Assembly (NCBI GenBank): GCA_002457315.1
Contig: NTKI01000003.1
Coordinates: 1 to 64,000, forward strand
Source: Rhodothermaeota bacterium MED-G19
GTDB lineage: Bacteria; Bacteroidota; Bacteroidia; Cytophagales; MED-G16
Direction of reading: 5' to 3'
Length of the DNA stretch: 64,000 bases
Below are positions 32,054 to 44,251 of the stretch, piece after piece (within the stretch, counting starts at the first letter, position 1; the number at the start of each line of letters is the position of its first letter). The notes below the pieces were generated by a model that saw only the letters and a program-made list of their open reading frames with translations, was not told the DNA's origin and made no database searches. Made by a program: the position numbers and the translations under genes.

Positions 32054-32609
32054 CGTAAATATATATTTAGAAGCTAACCCCAATCCTAATTCACTAAAGT
32101 TTGTTACTGATAGAATGCTAGTTGATGAGGGTGTAGTTAAAGACTATCCAGACGCAGAGAGCACCAAAGATTCTCCAATTGCAAAAAAATTATTTTCTTT
32201 TGATTATGTAGATAGGGTTTTTATAATGAGTAATTTCATAACAATAACAAAAAAAAATCAAGTTCACTGGGATAATATCAAGCTTGAATTAAGAAATTTT
32301 ATAAAAAAACATATTGAAGACGGGAATAAAATAGTTGAAATTAAACCTCAAGAAAAAAAGAAGTTATCATCAAATAAAGAAATTGATAAAAAAATAATCA
32401 ACATTTTGGATGAATATATAAAGCCAGCAGTTGAACAAGATGGCGGAGCTATTCAATTTGAGTCTTTTAAAAAAGGAACAGTTAAAGTTTCCCTACAAGG
32501 AGCTTGCAGTGGTTGTCCTTCGTCAATGATTACACTAAAATCAGGTATAGAGAAACTTCTTAAGAGGTTTGTTCCAGAAGTTAAAGAAGTAGTGGCTGAA
32601 GAAGTATAA
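32046..32609 (+). CDS. NifU-family Fe-S scaffold protein (Nfu)
   Basis: I use ATG 32046, since the Nfu_N domain begins right there (NIYLEANPNPNSLKF). The 187-residue protein has Nfu_N followed by a NifU C-terminal domain with VEQDGGAIQFESF and the cluster-binding SLQGACSGCPSSMITLK (Cys-x-x-Cys). It would carry 4Fe-4S clusters to target enzymes; several such clients (queG, the 44471-46539 proteins) are encoded in this window. It is convergent with cysS with a one-base gap. Confidence 0.9.
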   Translation: MNNVNIYLEANPNPNSLKFVTDRMLVDEGVVKDYPDAESTKDSPIAKKLFSFDYVDRVFIMSNFITITKKNQVHWDNIKLELRNFIKKHIEDGNKIVEIKPQEKKKLSSNKEIDKKIINILDEYIKPAVEQDGGAIQFESFKKGTVKVSLQGACSGCPSSMITLKSGIEKLLKRFVPEVKEVVAEEV

Positions 32610-32610
32610 T

Positions 32611-34071
32611 TTAAACTCTAACTGACCATTCAGTTGTGCCATCTGGATTATCTTTCAAGTCAATGCCTTCAGTGTTAAGTTTATCCCTAATTTTATCAGA
32701 TAAAGTATAATCTTTTTGTATTCTAGCATTATCTCTCTTTTCAATTGCATCCTCTATATCTGCAACATCAATGTTCTTATTTTTTAATATTAAAAGATTT
32801 AAATCTAAAATAAAGTCCTTTTTAGGCTCTTGGAATAAACCTAAAAAACCCCCATACATATTAAAAAAATCTAATAAACAAATAGAAAAATATTTTAACT
32901 CTCCTGATGGCTTTTTATTTACAGCTTCAAGATTAAATTTTCTAACCATATCAAAAACTACAGAGAAAAAGCCTGGAGTATTTAAATCATTATTTATAAA
33001 ACCAGAAGCTTTTTTAGAGTAGGATTCAAATTCGTTTTTATATTCTTTGGACTCTTTAACTTCAATCTTTGAGTTAGATAAATTTTCTGCTAAACTCAAG
33101 GCAGAATATATTTTTATAAGATTAATTATAGTTTGATTAATTAATTTTTTATTAAAATTTAATATTGATCTATAGTGTACACTAAGTATCAAAAACTTAA
33201 AAATTTCAGAATTATAGTCATTTATAAAATCTCTTCCTTTTATAATATTTCCTAATGACTTTGACATCTTTTGATTATCAAAATTTATTAGGTTATTATG
33301 AACCCAAAAGTTTGCAAAATTAGTTGAACTTCTGCTTTCAGATTGGGCTATTTCATTTTCATGATGAGGAAATAATAAATCAACTCCTCCTCCGTGAATA
33401 TCAATTTTTGAGCCAAGTAATTTCTTGGACATTGCGGAACACTCAATATGCCAACCAGGCCTTCCTATACCCCAAGGCGAATCCCAGCCTGGATCATCCT
33501 CAGAGGATGGCTTCCAAAGAACAAAGTCAAGAGGGTTTTTTTTATCATCGTTTACTTTTACTCTGTGTCCAGCTAGTAAATCTTCAGTGTTCTTTCCAGA
33601 CAATTTTCCATAATCTCTATGTTTTTCAATTGAAAAAAAAACACTTCCTTTAGATGTATATGCAAACCTTTTATCAATTAATTCCTCTATAAAAGAAATG
33701 ATATCATCAATGTGTTCAGTACATTTAGGTGAAAACGATGGTAAATTAATTTTTAATGATTTATAATCTTTCTCAAATTCTTTAATATATTTTTCAGATA
33801 TTTCTTTGGTAGTCTTGTTTTCTAGTTTTGATTTATTAATGATTTTATCATCTATATCAGTATAGTTATAGATATAGTTTACTTTATAACCTAAATACTC
33901 TAGCCAATTTCTTAAAAAGTTAAAAAAAATAGGTCCTCTAAAATTACCAACATGAAGTAAATCATATACTGTTGGGCCACATACATACATTGAAACTTTT
34001 CCTTTTTCATTTGAAATAAAGGTTTCTTTTTTTGTACCTAAAGAATTAAATAATTTAAGAGAGTCTTTCAT
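32611..34071 (-). CDS. cysS: Cysteinyl-tRNA synthetase
   Basis: CysS charges tRNA-Cys. The HIGH-type motif reads LLHVGN (His40), preceded by the zinc ligand in VCGPTVYD (Cys31). Further zinc ligands occur in GRPGWHIECSAM and HGGGVDLLFPHHENEIAQ, and the second signature is KMSKSLGN (near residue 270). Length is 486 residues. It is divergent from nusA; the region between them carries the nusA promoter and leader. Confidence 0.95.
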   Translation of the reverse strand: MKDSLKLFNSLGTKKETFISNEKGKVSMYVCGPTVYDLLHVGNFRGPIFFNFLRNWLEYLGYKVNYIYNYTDIDDKIINKSKLENKTTKEISEKYIKEFEKDYKSLKINLPSFSPKCTEHIDDIISFIEELIDKRFAYTSKGSVFFSIEKHRDYGKLSGKNTEDLLAGHRVKVNDDKKNPLDFVLWKPSSEDDPGWDSPWGIGRPGWHIECSAMSKKLLGSKIDIHGGGVDLLFPHHENEIAQSESRSSTNFANFWVHNNLINFDNQKMSKSLGNIIKGRDFINDYNSEIFKFLILSVHYRSILNFNKKLINQTIINLIKIYSALSLAENLSNSKIEVKESKEYKNEFESYSKKASGFINNDLNTPGFFSVVFDMVRKFNLEAVNKKPSGELKYFSICLLDFFNMYGGFLGLFQEPKKDFILDLNLLILKNKNIDVADIEDAIEKRDNARIQKDYTLSDKIRDKLNTEGIDLKDNPDGTTEWSVRV

Positions 34072-34102
34072 GTCTATTGTTTTGCTTTTTTTAAGGCAAA
34101 GT

Positions 34103-34132
34103 TTGTCTTCTATTTAAAAAAAGTTAAGTTTG
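34103..34132 (+). promoter_or_regulatory. Promoter of nusA-infB operon
   Basis: TTG at 34103-34105, a 19-base spacer and TAAGTTTG at 34125-34132 match the Bacteroidota housekeeping promoter exactly. Transcription would begin near 34139, giving a leader of about 50 bases before the nusA start at 34189. Confidence 0.75.
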
Positions 34133-34153
34133 CGTACTAATTTAATTGGAAGC

Positions 34154-34178
34154 GGGGACATTTGTCCCCATTTTTTTT
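34154..34178 (+). terminator. Intrinsic terminator in the nusA leader (candidate attenuator)
   Basis: The arms ggggac (34154-34159) and gtcccc (34164-34169) pair perfectly around the loop attt, and after one A come eight T (34171-34178). The hairpin lies after the nusA promoter and ends 10 bases before the start codon. On the plus strand no gene ends upstream, and cysS runs the other way, so it can only act within the nusA transcript. Since NusA itself changes termination at such sites, autoregulation is a natural inference. Confidence 0.8.
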
Positions 34179-34188
34179 GAAAAATATT

Positions 34189-35430
34189 ATGGACACTAAA
34201 GTACTTATACATTCATTTACAGATTTTGCTAAACAAAAGAACGTTGATCGCCCAACTATGATCAGAATTTTACAAGACGTTTTTAGGGCAATGATTAAAA
34301 AGAAATTTGAACAAGATGAAAATTTTGATATTGTTATAAATGCAGACAAAGGCGATCTCGAGATAATGAGATTTAGAGAGATTGTTGATGATAACTCAGA
34401 AGATATTTGGGATTTTGACAAAATCAAGCTTTCTGATGCAAAAGAAATAGAGAAAGATTTTGAGGTAGGTGATGAAGTCATTGAAGAAATAAAAATTGAA
34501 GATTTTGGAAGAAGAGCTGTCATACTAGCTAAGCAGACTTTGATTCAAAGAGTTAAAGATTTAGAAAAAGAGATTATTATCAGTAAATACGACGAGCTTG
34601 TCGGAGAAATAATTACTGGGGAAATATACCAGGTGCTTAGCAGAGAAGTTCTACTTGTTGACGGAGAAGGAAACGAGATTTCACTACCTAGATCTGAACA
34701 AATATATAAAGACAAATATAGAAAAGGAGATACATTAAGGGGTGTTGTTTCCAGTGTAGAAATGTTTAGAGGGAATCCTAAAATAACTTTGTCAAGAACT
34801 AGCCCTTTATTCCTTGAGAAACTATTTGAAAATGAGGTTCCTGAAATAAGCGATGGATTGATCACAATAAAGAAAGTTGTAAGAGAACCTGGAGAAAGAG
34901 CAAAAATTTGTGTTGAATCATATGATGATAGAATTGATCCTGTAGGTGCTTGCGTGGGTATGAACGGCTCTAGAATTCATTCAATCGTCAGAGAGCTACA
35001 AAATGAAAATATAGATGTTATAAACTACACAGATAATCAAGAACTTTATATTTCTAGAGCTCTTAGTCCAGCTAAAATTAGCAGTATGCAAATTGACAAT
35101 GAGGAGAAAACAGTATCAGTCTATTTAAAACCTGATCAAGTTTCTTTAGCTATTGGTAAAGGAGGACAAAACATTAAACTAGCAAGTAAGCTTTTAGAAT
35201 TAGAGATTGATGTTTTTAGAGAACTAGATGAAAGTCAAGAAGAAGATGTAGATCTTGAAGAATTTTCTGATGAAATTGAAGGCTGGATAATTGATGAACT
35301 CAAAAGAATTGGTTTAGATACAGCAAAAGCAGTCTTAAATATTGAAAAAGAAGACCTAATTAAAAGAGCTGATCTTGAGGAGAGTACAATTGACACAGTA
35401 GTAAAAACATTAAAAAAAGAGTTTGAATAA
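34189..35430 (+). CDS. nusA: Transcription termination/antitermination protein NusA
   Basis: NusA binds RNA polymerase and controls pausing, termination and antitermination. I choose ATG 34189; an upstream in-frame start would lie within the terminator hairpin. The 413-residue protein has the N-terminal domain, S1 domain (GEIITGEIYQVLSREVLLVD), KH domains (GACVGMNGSRIHSIVRELQN and SLAIGKGGQNIKLASKL) and an acidic C-terminal tail with a helix-hairpin-helix-like part. rimP, the usual upstream neighbour, is absent. infB follows after three bases. Confidence 0.94.
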   Translation: MDTKVLIHSFTDFAKQKNVDRPTMIRILQDVFRAMIKKKFEQDENFDIVINADKGDLEIMRFREIVDDNSEDIWDFDKIKLSDAKEIEKDFEVGDEVIEEIKIEDFGRRAVILAKQTLIQRVKDLEKEIIISKYDELVGEIITGEIYQVLSREVLLVDGEGNEISLPRSEQIYKDKYRKGDTLRGVVSSVEMFRGNPKITLSRTSPLFLEKLFENEVPEISDGLITIKKVVREPGERAKICVESYDDRIDPVGACVGMNGSRIHSIVRELQNENIDVINYTDNQELYISRALSPAKISSMQIDNEEKTVSVYLKPDQVSLAIGKGGQNIKLASKLLELEIDVFRELDESQEEDVDLEEFSDEIEGWIIDELKRIGLDTAKAVLNIEKEDLIKRADLEESTIDTVVKTLKKEFE

Positions 35431-35433
35431 ATT

Positions 35434-37815
35434 ATGAATGAGTCAAAACAATTAAGGTTAGGGCAAGTTGCTAGAAAACTAAATGTTGGTAGAAATACAA
35501 TAATTAGTTATCTCCATGACAAAGGATATGATGTTGATTCTAATCCAAACACAAAAATTAACCATGACTTATTTAAAATTCTTGAAAATGCTTTTGAAGA
35601 TTCTGCAGTTGAAAAAAAAGTTGCGTCCAATATTAAAATAGGAATAGAAGAAAAAGGTAATTTCATCCAAGAGACAAAAAAAGTAGAAGAGAAAAAAATA
35701 GAAGAAAAAAAAATAGAAGAGAAAAAAGAGACAGGAGGCATTAAAATAATAAAAAAAATCAAGCTGGATAATATCAGTAAAAAAAGAGTTGCCTCATCAG
35801 ATCAATCAAAGAAAAAAAGAAGACCAAGAAAAAGAATTATTTCGAATAAAAATAAACCCAAAATCGGATCTCAAAACCCTCCAGAAAGTAAAGAGGAAAT
35901 TGATAAAAAAAATAAAGAGATTCAAAATAAAATTAAATCAACACTTGCCAAGCTTAGCGGAACAAAAGACTCAGATACCAAGAGATCTAAATATAGAAAA
36001 GAAAAAAGAAGTCAGCATGCAGAAGCTATTGAAGAAGAAAAAATAAAACAAGAAGAAGATTCTAAAACATTAAAAGTTACCGAATATATTTCTGCAAATG
36101 ACTTAGCCAAACTAATGGATGTAACAGTAAATGATGTTATTTCTAAATATCTTGAAATAGGAATGTTTGTCTCTATTAATCAAAGATTAGACGCAGAAAC
36201 AATTAGTATCATTGCTGAAGAATTCGGGTATACGGTAGAGTTTACTACTTCAGATGATGAAGAAATAGTAGTTATAGAAGAAGAAGATAAAGAAGAAGAT
36301 CTATCTCCAAGAGCCCCTATTGTTACAATTATGGGACATGTTGATCACGGGAAAACTTCATTGTTAGATTATATAAGGAAGTCTAGGGTGACAGAAGGAG
36401 AAGCTGGTGGTATAACTCAACACATAGGGGCATATGATGTTGAAACAAAAAGTGGACAAAAAATTGCTTTTCTAGATACTCCAGGTCATGAGGCGTTTAC
36501 AGCAATGAGAGCCAGAGGAGCTAAAATAACTGATATTGTAATTATTGTTATAGCAGCAGACTCAACAGTAATGCCTCAAACAAAAGAAGCTATTAACCAC
36601 AGTAAAGTGGCTGACGTGCCAATCGTTTTTGCTATAAATAAGATTGATACACCAAATGCAAATATCAACAAAGTAAAGGAAGACCTATCTAATAATAATA
36701 TCTTAGTTGAAGACTGGGGTGGAAAATTTCAGTGTCAAGAAGTCTCTGCAAAAACAGGAAAAGGTGTAGAAGAATTATTAGAAAAAGTTTTATTAGAAGC
36801 TGAGCTTCTTGAGTTAAAAGCAAATGAAAATAAAAAAGCAATAGGTACGGTTGTTGAATCAGAACTAGATAAGGGAAGAGGATACTTAACAACAATTATG
36901 GTTCAAGGTGGAACTCTGAATAAGGGAGATATTATTTTAGCTGGAGCTCAACATGGAAAAGTAAAAGCTTTATTTGATCATAGGGGTAAAGAAAAACAGA
37001 GCGTAGGACCAGCTACACCAATACTGATGCTTGGTCTTAATGGTGCGCCCCAAGCAGGAGATAAATTTAATGTCTTTGATACTGATAAAGAAGCAAGAGA
37101 ATTAGCAACTAAAAGAGAACAGCTAATTAGAGAACAAAAATTAAGAACTAAAAAACATGTCACGCTTGATGAAATTGGGAGAAGATTAGCACTAGGTAAT
37201 TTTAAAGAATTAAATATTGTTCTCAAGGGAGATGTGGACGGGTCTATTGAAGCTCTTTCAGATTCAATGGAAAAACTTTCAACAGATGAAATCTCCGTGA
37301 ATATTATTCATAGGGCAGTTGGTCAAATTACTGAATCAGATGTATTACTAGCTTCAGCATCTGACGCTATAATTATAGGTTTTCAAGTCAGACCTTCCGT
37401 TAACGCAAGAACTCTGGCAGAGAAAGAAGGAATAGATATCAGAATGTATTCAATAATTTATGAGGCAATTACCGAGATTAAAAGTGCAATGGAAGGTATG
37501 TTAGAGCCAACAGAAGAAGAGAAAATTACCGGTAATGTTGAGGTAAGAGAAGTATATAAAATATCAAAAATCGGGACTATAGCAGGATGCTATGTGACAA
37601 ATGGTAGTATAATTAGAAAAAACAAGATTAGGTTGATTAGAGATGGAATTGTTATATTCACAGGTAAAATAAAACAATTGAAGAGGTTTAAAGAAGATGC
37701 AAATGAAGTGAAAAACGGATATGAGTGTGGTATTAGCATTGAAGATTATAATGATATAAAAGTTGGAGATACAATAGAATCATTTGAAATAAAAGAGATA
37801 AAAAGAAAACTTTAA
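35434..37815 (+). CDS. infB: Translation initiation factor IF-2
   Basis: IF-2 is the GTPase that brings initiator tRNA to the 30S subunit. The 793-residue protein has an N-terminal IF2_N helix-turn domain ([16 protein letters not shown]), a Lys/Glu-rich linker with three EEKKI-type repeats at residues 84-98 (35683-35727), and a second IF2_N region. The G domain has [15 protein letters not shown] (near residue 302), DTPGHEAF and NKID. Domains II-IV follow with [10 protein letters not shown]. It is translated directly after nusA. Confidence 0.95.
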
Positions 37816-37826
37816 ATTTGAGGATT

Positions 37827-38210
37827 ATGGTAAAGAAAGAGAAAACAAAATACACAGCTTCAGAGTTAGAAAAATTTGAAAAGCTAATTTTGGAAAAAAT
37901 GGAGAGTGCCCAGAAAGAGCTTGACTTTATTAGAGAATCTTTACAAAGGAGCAATTTATCAGGGACTGACTCAACTCAAGGTGCACTTAAAACTCTTGAA
38001 GATGGTGCAGATACAATGGAAAAAGAAAGTTTAAGTCAACTTGCTGGAAGACAGCAAAAGTTTATTACAAACTTAGAAAAAGCTCTAATTAGAATTAAAA
38101 ATGGAACTTACGGTATATGCAAAGACACAGGGAATTTAATTGATAAAAAAAGATTAAGAGCTGTTCCACACGCAACACAATCTATAGAAGCAAAATTAAA
38201 TAGAGGGTAA
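37827..38210 (+). CDS. DksA/TraR-family protein with a reduced zinc finger
   Basis: I choose ATG 37827. The 127-residue protein has the coiled-coil layout of DksA/TraR proteins (ELEKFEKLILEKMESAQKEL ... EKESLSQLAGRQQKFITNLE KALIRI in order) and the segment GTYGICKDTGNLIDKKRLRA, where the family's zinc finger lies. Only one Cys is left, so a four-Cys zinc site cannot form; the fold is probably held by other contacts, as in Cys-poor DksA forms. It would act in the secondary channel of RNA polymerase. It sits 11 bases after infB and two bases before scpB. Confidence 0.82.
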   Translation: MVKKEKTKYTASELEKFEKLILEKMESAQKELDFIRESLQRSNLSGTDSTQGALKTLEDGADTMEKESLSQLAGRQQKFITNLEKALIRIKNGTYGICKDTGNLIDKKRLRAVPHATQSIEAKLNRG

Positions 38211-38212
38211 AA

Positions 38213-38776
38213 TTGAGTTCATTAGAATCAAAGATTGAATCATTAATTTTTTGTTCACCAAAACCTATCAAAGTAAGTGATATAATTAAAACATTTTCAG
38301 AATGTGAAAAAGCAGATTATTCTGAAAAAAAAATTTCAGAGAATATTGAAAGTTTAATTAAAAAATATAAAAATGATAAGTTTTCTTTTGAGATAATAGA
38401 GTCTGGGGGTGGTTTTCAATTTTTAACAAAAAGAGATTATTCTAGATTAAACGAAATATTACTTAAACAACAATCAAGAAGACGTCTTTCTATATCAGCA
38501 CTAGAAACATTATCAATAATAGCATATAAACAACCTGTCACAAAATCAGAAATTGAAAAAATAAGAGGCGTTAACTGCGATTATACTATTCAAAAATTAT
38601 TAGATAAAGAGTTAATAAGAATAGATGGAAAATCAGATAAAGTTGGAAGACCACTTATATACTCAACAAGTGAAAAGTTTATGGATTATTTTGGAATAAA
38701 TAGTCTTGAGCAGTTACCTACAATAAAAGATTTCCAAAAGGAGGAAAATTCTATAGGTGATGAAGAAGAAGCCTGA
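38213..38776 (+). CDS. scpB: Segregation and condensation protein B
   Basis: ScpB is the winged-helix partner of ScpA and SMC in chromosome condensation. The start is a TTG at 38213 (LESKIESLIFCSPKPIKVSD fits the family N-terminus). RRRLSISALETLSIIAYKQP and VTKSEIEKIRGVNCDYTIQK are diagnostic, followed by GRPLIYSTSEKFMDYFGI. Length is 187 residues. Its 3' end overlaps the pseudouridine synthase gene by 17 bases. Confidence 0.93.
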   Translation: MSSLESKIESLIFCSPKPIKVSDIIKTFSECEKADYSEKKISENIESLIKKYKNDKFSFEIIESGGGFQFLTKRDYSRLNEILLKQQSRRRLSISALETLSIIAYKQPVTKSEIEKIRGVNCDYTIQKLLDKELIRIDGKSDKVGRPLIYSTSEKFMDYFGINSLEQLPTIKDFQKEENSIGDEEEA

Positions 38777-39479
38777 TTCACAATCAATCCGTCTAAATAA
38801 ATTTATATCTCTTTCAGGATATTGCACTCGCAGAAATGCAGATGAACTTATAAGTAAGGGAAGGGTCAAAGTAAATGGGACAAAGTGTACCAAACTTGGA
38901 ATAAAAGTTGATATAAACGACATTGTTATAGTAGATAAAAAAGAAATAATTTATGGAGAAAAACTTTATATTTTATTAAATAAGCCTCAAGGGTTTTCAA
39001 CTAATATTAAAGACGAAGGGAAAAGAGTATTTGATTTATTAAAAAAATTTAAAGAAAAGTTATTTTCTTTTGGAGAGTTAGATAAAAAATCTATGGGCCT
39101 TTTATTACTAACAAATGATAATGATTTAATAAAAAAACTAACATCAAAGTCAAGTGCTTTAAAAAATATTTACAGTGTGTGTGTAGATAAGGCAATAAAA
39201 GAAAGTGAAATTAATCTAATTAAATCAGGATTAATTATTGATAACAAAAAAGTCATACCACAAAAAATCATAAAGTTAGAAGAAGAAAATAAAGTCGGAC
39301 TAGAAATAAACTCTGAGGATGATATAGCTATAAAAAAAATATTTGAAAAATTAAATTTTAAAATATCAAAGTTAGATAGAGTTGTCTTTGGACCATTGAC
39401 AAAAAAAGATTTACCAAGAGGGAAATGGAGAAAGCTAAAACATAATGAAGTAAGAAATCTAAAATCTTTTATAAATTAA
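38760..39479 (+). CDS. rRNA pseudouridine synthase, RluB/RsuA family
   Basis: This 239-residue protein has an N-terminal S4 RNA-binding domain (IRLNKFISLSGYCTRRNADE, GRVKVNGTK) and a catalytic domain with LLNKPQGFST and GELDKKSMGLLLLTND, in which the Asp is the catalytic residue. The usual Gly-Arg-Leu-Asp is changed to Gly-Glu-Leu-Asp, but the Asp is kept. ATG 38760 or the GTG three bases before it could be the start. It overlaps scpB and is convergent with the protease gene by four bases. Confidence 0.85.
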   Translation: MKKKPDSQSIRLNKFISLSGYCTRRNADELISKGRVKVNGTKCTKLGIKVDINDIVIVDKKEIIYGEKLYILLNKPQGFSTNIKDEGKRVFDLLKKFKEKLFSFGELDKKSMGLLLLTNDNDLIKKLTSKSSALKNIYSVCVDKAIKESEINLIKSGLIIDNKKVIPQKIIKLEEENKVGLEINSEDDIAIKKIFEKLNFKISKLDRVVFGPLTKKDLPRGKWRKLKHNEVRNLKSFIN

Positions 39480-41947: not shown

Positions 41948-42028
41948 GTGAGACATAATGTCTCACAATAGTTATATTATGTCTCACAATAGTTATATTT
42001 ATATAAAATATTAAGTCTCATGGGACAT
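41948..42028 (+). repeat. Palindrome and tandem 21-bp repeats abutting the NagB-fusion start
   Basis: gtgagacataatgtctcac (41948-41966) is a perfect palindrome with nine-base arms and one central base. Its right arm begins two exact tandem copies of a 21-base unit (41958-41978 and 41979-41999; core atgtctcacaatagttat). A third, partial site gtctcatgggac (42015-42026) spans the start codon at 42020. Phased half-sites of this kind usually bind a protein. They could be operators of the downstream gene or recombinase arm sites. Confidence 0.8.
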
Positions 42029-44251
42029 AAAATAAAGATTAACTCTAACCCCTTAAGATCATTTTGCTATTACAACAGCAACGGCAAACGAATAAAAGTA
42101 TATAATGGCAAGCAGTTTAATGAAGATCTATATCCAAACAAAGAAAAAGATCTTATTAAAAGAACAGCTCTACTAAAAAGACTAAAAAACATAATTGACT
42201 TCAATTTAGGAATATCAAAATCAAATAAAAATCAAAGAAGAAGAAGGTCAGACAACCTGTATGACCAGAGTGTTTTTAAGGAAAGAATAGCAATAGAGCT
42301 TTATGAACATCCAAAATTTGGCTCCAACGCAGCGGCAAACGAAATAGCGAATTTGATTAAAGAAAAACAAAAGAATAATAAGAATTGTGTATTAGGTTTA
42401 GCTACAGGATCCTCTCCTATTTCAATTTATGAAGAACTTGTCAGAATGCACAAAGAAGAAAACTTAAGCTTCCATAATGTGATTACATTCAACTTAGATG
42501 AATATCTCCCAATGGATCCAAACTCCATACATAGCTACCATAAATTTATGTTTGAAAACCTTTTTGATCACATAGACATAGACCCGAATAATATTAATAT
42601 TCCAAACGGAAATATTGATTCAGATAAAACTGAAAAACATTGTGTCGAATTTGAAAATAAAATTAAAAAGGAAGGGGGTTTAGACTTTCAACTTCTTGGG
42701 ATTGGCAGAAATGGACACATAGGCTTTAATGAACCCGGATCCATTGAATCCTCAGTAACCAGAAAAGTTAAAATAGAGATAACTACAAGATTTGATGCCG
42801 CAAGTGAATTTGGAGGAATAAATAATGTCCCTAAGGATGCTATTTCTATGGGTATAAGAACCATAATGAGCGCAAAAAGAGTAGTGCTGGTAGCTTGGGG
42901 TGATGGTAAAGCTAAAGTTGTAAAAAAAGCAGTAGAAGAAGAGGAAAACGAATTGGTGCCGGCTTCATTCTTACAAACACATCCTAATTGTCTCTTTGTT
43001 TTAGATAAAGAATCATCATCACAACTTAACAGGATGAACTGTCCATGGGTTTTTACAGATATCACAAAAAAACCATCATCTATACTTAGTTCTACTATTA
43101 TTGGATGGACAGATTTTAATATCAAAAAAGCAGTTATATGGTTAAGTATCAAAAAAAACAAATCCATATTACAGTTAACAGACGAGGACTATCAGGAAAA
43201 TGGAATGGGAGGAATTTTTGAAAAATATGTGTCAGCATATGAGACAAACATTAAAGTTTTCAACATGATTCAAAACACAATCACGGGTTGGCCTGGGGGG
43301 AAACCTAACGCCGATGACGCAGGAAGACCAGAAAGAGCAAAACCTTCAAAAAAAAGAGTTTTAATTTTTTCTCCTCACCCAGATGATGACGTAATATCTA
43401 TGGGAGGAACCTTTGAAAGATTAATTAAACAAGGGCATGAAGTTCATGTGGCGTATAACACATCAGGAAACATAGCAGTAAATGACAATAATGTATTAGA
43501 AATAACTGAACTTATACAGAGACTAGTTACTAGCTTATCCCCTAAAGAACTAAATACACTAATGAGCGATGGAAAAAATAAATTGGGAAAAAACCATATT
43601 ATATGGGCAAGAAACTTCCATAAAAGCATATCTGGCCTATTAATGGAAAAGATTGATGTTGATGGTTTTAAAATCGTAAATCAAGTTAAAGGTATAATTA
43701 GAAAATCTGAAGCGTATCAAGCGTGTCAATATCTTGGTTTAAAAAATGAAGAGAACATACACTATTTAGATATGCCATTTTATCAAACAGGAACCATTAA
43801 AAAGAAAGATATATCAGATGAAGATATAAAGATTGTTCAGAATTTAATTACAAAAATAAAACCACATCAAATATATGCAGCAGGAGATTTAAGTGATCCT
43901 CACGGAACACATAGACTTTGTTTAAGATCAATATATAGAGCAATAGACAATTTAAAATCAAAATTATTTATGAAAGACTGTTATGTGTGGTTATACCGGG
44001 GAGCTTGGAATGAATGGAAAGTGTATGATATTGATATGTCGGTACCACTTAGCCCTGAGCAAGTAATAAAAAAACGAAGAGCTATATTTAAGCATCAATC
44101 ACAGAAAGATGGAATAGTGTTCCCTGGGGAAGATGTAAGGGAATTTTGGCAAAGAGCAGAAGACAGAAATAAGAATACAGCAGAATTTTTTTCTAAACTA
44201 GGGTTTGCAAAATACAGTGCCATGGAAGGATTTAAAAGGTATAGATTTTAA
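42020..44251 (+). CDS. nagB: Glucosamine-6-phosphate deaminase fused to LmbE/PIG-L-type domain
   Basis: NagB converts glucosamine 6-phosphate to fructose 6-phosphate and ammonia. Residues about 88-350 form the deaminase (LGLATGSSPISIYEEL, TFNLDEYLPM, GIGRNGHIGFNEPG). Residues about 445-740 form an LmbE/PIG-L deacetylase-like domain with the zinc motif SPHPDDDVISMGG (His453) and a later DPHGTHR. This fusion is known in Bacteroidota and would link sugar deacetylation and deamination. Unusual is a basic N-terminal extension of about 65 residues (RSFCYYNSNGKRIKVYNGKQ and following), which resembles the arm-type DNA-binding region of phage integrases. No other start codon lies before the deaminase domain. 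Confidence 0.88.
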   Translation: MGHKIKINSNPLRSFCYYNSNGKRIKVYNGKQFNEDLYPNKEKDLIKRTALLKRLKNIIDFNLGISKSNKNQRRRRSDNLYDQSVFKERIAIELYEHPKFGSNAAANEIANLIKEKQKNNKNCVLGLATGSSPISIYEELVRMHKEENLSFHNVITFNLDEYLPMDPNSIHSYHKFMFENLFDHIDIDPNNINIPNGNIDSDKTEKHCVEFENKIKKEGGLDFQLLGIGRNGHIGFNEPGSIESSVTRKVKIEITTRFDAASEFGGINNVPKDAISMGIRTIMSAKRVVLVAWGDGKAKVVKKAVEEEENELVPASFLQTHPNCLFVLDKESSSQLNRMNCPWVFTDITKKPSSILSSTIIGWTDFNIKKAVIWLSIKKNKSILQLTDEDYQENGMGGIFEKYVSAYETNIKVFNMIQNTITGWPGGKPNADDAGRPERAKPSKKRVLIFSPHPDDDVISMGGTFERLIKQGHEVHVAYNTSGNIAVNDNNVLEITELIQRLVTSLSPKELNTLMSDGKNKLGKNHIIWARNFHKSISGLLMEKIDVDGFKIVNQVKGIIRKSEAYQACQYLGLKNEENIHYLDMPFYQTGTIKKKDISDEDIKIVQNLITKIKPHQIYAAGDLSDPHGTHRLCLRSIYRAIDNLKSKLFMKDCYVWLYRGAWNEWKVYDIDMSVPLSPEQVIKKRRAIFKHQSQKDGIVFPGEDVREFWQRAEDRNKNTAEFFSKLGFAKYSAMEGFKRYRF

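Follow-up and report, generated by a model that had tools for sequence, protein, structure and literature searches.

The sequence and conservation data suggest that a GC-rich hairpin followed by eight T residues, located between the promoter and the start codon of nusA, probably functions as a promoter-proximal attenuator of the nusA-infB operon that is subject to feedback by NusA. The anatomy of this leader, its conservation and its terminator-like signature are observed directly in the window, i.e. the whole 64-kb stretch of DNA analyzed here, and in its relatives.

The features of the locus are summarized in Table 1. The initial annotation had described a promoter followed by a six-pair GC hairpin, eight T residues and the nusA ATG, and all of these elements are found in this order. 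Promoter type and start position were assigned from the sequence on the basis of the known Bacteroidota consensus, which places the predicted transcription start at approximately 34136; a generic sigma-70 scan missed the nusA promoter because it is of the Bacteroidota type. The hairpin begins approximately 18 bases past the predicted start, rather than the roughly 15 bases first estimated, and approximately 19 bases ahead of the nusA ATG (34189-34191). A single A at 34170 separates it from the T-tract. Termination here would give an RNA of approximately 40-43 nt, in agreement with the short RNA of about 40 bases anticipated earlier. The ATG had also been chosen correctly as the nusA start codon, given that the protein match begins there; the alternative TTG start in the list of open reading frames, at 34162, falls within the hairpin.

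Table 1. Features of the nusA leader and of the surrounding genes (positions in the window)
Feature	Position	Strand	Basis
Promoter, Bacteroidota type, predicted: TTTG (34102-34105), 19-base spacer, TAAGTTTG (34125-34132)	34102-34132	+	sequence
Leader segment from predicted start to hairpin, without competing structure	34136-34153	+	93% family identity; folding
Terminator hairpin, predicted: GGGGACATTTGTCCCC (GGGGAC-ATTT-GTCCCC), perfect six-pair stem	34154-34169	+	sequence, folding, conservation
T8 tract, predicted transcript-release site	34171-34178	+	no variation among 14 family genomes
nusA, first gene of the operon	34189-35430	+	NusA_N and KH domains (Pfam); protein match 34189-35427
infB (translation initiation factor IF2)	35434-37815	+	Pfam IF-2, IF2_N, GTP_EFTU
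Genes after infB: DksA/TraR zinc-finger protein, scpB, S4-domain pseudouridine synthase	37830-39479	+	Pfam
cysS, divergent neighbor, outside the element	32611-34071	-	Pfam tRNA-synt_1e

The usual first gene of the nusA-infB operon is rimP. In the window nusA and infB are followed by the DksA/TraR, scpB and S4-domain genes with close spacing or overlap. The plus-strand gene preceding nusA ends at 32609, approximately 1.5 kb upstream of the hairpin, and cysS is transcribed divergently, so that no plus-strand gene ends at the hairpin, as previously noted. Because no such gene ends there and the promoter lies upstream, the predicted terminator would act on its own operon; the earlier proposal that its target is the nusA-infB transcript thus holds, the hairpin lying inside this transcript. 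Further along the plus strand, at 42020-44251, a glucosamine-6-phosphate isomerase domain is fused with a PIG-L deacetylase domain.

Using a stem of at least six pairs, at least five GC pairs and a T-rich tail as criteria on both strands of the 64 kb, two strong terminator-like sites were found in the window, whereas 20 dinucleotide shuffles gave none. The second site, at 2873-2888 (GCCGCC...GCGGC, T5), is preceded by an open reading frame for a hydrophobic 71-residue protein without a Pfam match; reading frame and hairpin together span 2608-2888 on the plus strand. The leader (54 nt) folds at -14.6 kcal/mol compared to a mean of -7.1 for shuffled sequences (z = -3.2), and at only -0.3 kcal/mol when the core hairpin is forbidden, on which ground it is predicted to contain no antiterminator. 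A covariance model of the hairpin (R1) matched many terminator-like sites in each genome and is therefore too general to serve as a specific detector of the leader. The hairpin is consistent with being built like the usual terminators of the phylum. The possibility that the palindrome is a repeated operator was considered and rejected, as the genome holds only one copy, that of the leader, when up to two mismatches are allowed.

The leader is strongly conserved in the family, as analyzed in the 14 family genomes with a nusA match. The relatives that have names are MAGs of marine Cytophagales carrying the label Marinoscillum or Flammeovirgaceae. All 14 genomes have promoter, hairpin and T8, with TTTG and TAA[AG]TTTG kept throughout. 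The joint conservation which the initial annotation had named as a check is thus found, and neither of the outcomes it had listed against its reading is seen: none of these close relatives lacks the hairpin, and the predicted promoter is ahead of it in every one. Mean pairwise identity is 98.9% over hairpin and T-tract and 93% in the segment before the hairpin, as compared to 83.5% in the first 40 bases of nusA and 55% in the intergenic DNA upstream of the promoter. Only a single loop base varies in the hairpin; as all family genomes share one stem sequence, covariation within the family is uninformative.

In other families of the order and the class the same arrangement is found ahead of rimP-nusA in most sampled genomes. 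A typical leader outside the family consists of TAnnTTTG, approximately 10-30 bases, a hairpin of the form (G)AGGGGAC...GTCCCCT(C) and a T-rich tail. At the loosest threshold promoter, hairpin and T-tract were detected in this order upstream of nusA in 79 of 107 non-family loci, whereas reversed sequences gave 1 of 107 and shuffles 0.19%. With the strictest threshold the arrangement was detected in 59/107 loci and in none of the controls. Many loci missed by the scan do carry the leader, their promoter being degenerate or their loop longer. Of 80 genomes in another set, made up of named species and MAGs, 79 have the arrangement, and in the remaining one the contig ends prematurely. Of 147 loci outside the family, 104 have TAnnTTTG ahead of the leader hairpin, and among these 104 leaders 85 have GGGG..CCCC and 50 exactly GGGGAC..GTCCCC. 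In relatives the next ATG follows the last stem C at a median distance of 19 bases, with a range of 7 to about 150. The T-tract, a full T8 in the family, is often interrupted in relatives, as in TTTGTTTT or TTCATTATT.

As loops vary in length, the covariation analysis was restricted to 26 leaders whose loop has 5 bases: pairing holds in 96.6% of pair cells, and changes on both sides are seen at 7 of 9 stem pairs, which exceeds all 500 shuffles. This supports selection on pairing but does not prove it because the sequences were selected for having a hairpin. Outside the class, a strict scan detected no such leader in 14 of 18 sampled loci. In a minority of the sampled genomes from other classes of the same phylum (loci L149, L150, L147 and L140), G-rich hairpins with T-tails lie upstream of nusA; they could be of the same kind or 3' terminators of the preceding genes.

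What happens to the leader in lineages in which rimP is lacking or has moved can be read as a natural test of which gene product of the operon it serves. The RimP_N profile gave no match in 15 family genomes, most of which are incomplete; the same search was positive in 10 of 14 control genomes. In a further set, rimP was not found in G016, G064, G151, G115, G174, G165, G208, G035 and G128, and it was present in 11 others. Among the rimP-less genomes examined, the leader lies directly before nusA in G016, G064, G151, G174, G165 and G208. In G035, which belongs to a small-genome lineage (family f21, locus L092), neither rimP nor a recognizable leader before nusA was detected. In the three genomes in which rimP is located elsewhere (G116, G130 and G090), the leader is found on nusA in 3/3 and on rimP in 1/3: G116 and G130 have it on nusA and not on rimP, and in G090 both genes have nearly identical leaders, that of nusA with one stem mismatch. 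The two G090 genes are on different contigs (rimP, L126; nusA, L071). Their leaders read GGGAACTGAAAAGTACCC and GGGAACTGAGAAGTCCCC, with TTTTTTATTG after either one, and could suggest that the split of the operon was accompanied by a duplication of the leader. Altogether, among nusA loci outside the family that are not preceded by rimP, 9 of 11 have the leader, three of the nine as judged by eye; these counts are of genomes or loci rather than of independent rimP losses.

Because the leader is kept on nusA where rimP is missing or has moved, these patterns point to nusA, not rimP, as the probable partner of the leader. IF2 stays a candidate for the sensed product because infB travels with nusA. 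A more far-reaching idea is that across Bacteroidia the leader terminator serves a feedback tied to nusA and does not depend on rimP, the strongly conserved G4(AC)/(GT)C4 stem sequence being recognized directly by NusA and not only folded; we advance this tentatively and regard it as possible but on the whole doubtful.

Transcription from the promoter, termination at the hairpin and a response to NusA are proposed by analogy with the relatives and with published work on other bacteria. We suggest that RNA polymerase would start at around position 34136 and reach the intrinsic terminator after approximately 40 bases, where some polymerases would stop and others would read on into nusA and infB. 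NusA riding on RNA polymerase would increase the fraction that stops, and in that way plentiful NusA would throttle the operon and scarce NusA would open it. With only the short segment between predicted start and hairpin available, no aptamer or leader peptide is expected to fit, and as an antiterminator is also lacking from the predicted fold, control would be exerted via a factor on the polymerase or on the hairpin itself.

Alternatively, the terminator could stop a constant share of polymerases and thereby set the level of operon expression without responding to any factor. The strong stem, the full T8 and the lack of an antiterminator are in line with a fixed attenuator of this type. However, a weaker promoter could achieve the same effect, the stem sequence and not just its pairing is conserved (the GGGG..CCCC leaders described above), and the corresponding leader in Bacillus subtilis is reported to be NusA-dependent (PMC12288461); we therefore consider this explanation unlikely. 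Among terminators of B. subtilis, NusA dependence tends to go with a weak hairpin or an interrupted U-tract (PMC8060035), and the terminator in the window, with the strong stem and uninterrupted T-tract of the family, might work without NusA.

Still less likely, in our estimation, is an attenuator that senses IF2, NusG or a protein binding the GGGGAC/GTCCCC stem instead of NusA. The conserved stem sequence suggests specific recognition, as also argued in PMC2965389, and infB remains in the operon; but RimP is an improbable candidate, given that the leader is retained where rimP is absent, and among the operon products NusA is the one with a known action on terminators, for which feedback has also been published elsewhere. 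That the hairpin is no terminator but stabilizes the 5' end of the mRNA or controls translation is highly improbable. Its position approximately 19 bases ahead of the start codon, matched by the median of 19 in relatives, would suit such a function, but the distance to the ATG varies widely among relatives and T8 is invariant in the family. Moreover, in the 104 leaders the frequency of T runs from 0.92 to 0.60 across the nine bases past the last stem C and is 0.25 by the eleventh base; a T enrichment limited to nine bases after the stem is the signature predicted for an intrinsic terminator and is unexpected for a stabilizing or translational hairpin. Finally, an ordinary 3' or insulating terminator against upstream transcription has a negligible chance of being correct even though the element is terminator-shaped and the preceding plus-strand gene lies 1.5 kb upstream, as no gene ends here, promoter and hairpin are conserved jointly and the nusA promoter is upstream of the hairpin, so that the insulated gene would itself be silenced. 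In total, we favor the NusA-responsive attenuator.

Attenuators of this kind have been described before. The rimP-leader, which Naville and Gautheret (2010, PMC2965389) called the most ubiquitous attenuator, is a short GGGc...gCCC hairpin with a T-stretch in the 5' UTR of rimP-nusA-infB without a visible antiterminator, and NusA was proposed as its regulator in many bacteria. The element in the window similarly lies in a nusA-infB leader (a rimP-nusA leader in most relatives), has a G-rich 5' arm and a C-rich 3' arm followed by a T-stretch, and is predicted to lack an antiterminator. It differs in that nusA is the first gene, since rimP was not found, in the particular arms GGGGAC/GTCCCC and in the position of the hairpin relative to the predicted start. 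Apart from the absent rimP, the predicted element thus agrees with the published description on each testable point. Bacteroidetes do not appear by name in the main text of that paper. In B. subtilis, NusA is autoregulated through NusA-stimulated termination in its own leader (PMC12288461), and an intrinsic terminator in the leader limits transcription into the operon, as predicted here; NusA dependence is reported there and is predicted here, and the B. subtilis rimP leader is approximately 180 nt long (PMC2965389) as compared to approximately 53 nt in the window. Nearly the same geometry is found in Streptococcus agalactiae, in which an intrinsic terminator ahead of rimP-nusA ends transcripts of gbs0413-gbs0418 at 31 nt from their start and feedback by NusA was proposed, with a parallel to Escherichia coli (PMC4448216); this leader is from a Firmicute, rimP is present and the short RNA was seen by RNA-seq.

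Closest in phylum and operon position is a structured 5' element before rimP in Flavobacterium psychrophilum transcripts, presented as being without an Rfam hit and as conserved in other genera of Flavobacteriaceae (PMC9723704); we liken it to the leader in the window by its description, and the passages of that report describing the element propose no mechanism. The Rfam family RF01770 (rimP) has the same operon and position and a longer model of 102 positions; none of 39 genomes of the order scored above its curated cut-off, it did not match the leader in the window even at E up to 10, and an Rfam search with this leader matched no family. On the evidence of these comparisons, the predicted leader terminator of the nusA operon is of a known kind, a Bacteroidota form of the published rimP-leader attenuator, and what is new is how widely it occurs in Bacteroidia and that it sits on nusA where rimP is gone. 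The published attenuator is thereby extended to a class for which descriptions of it are scarce and transcription attenuation has received little study.
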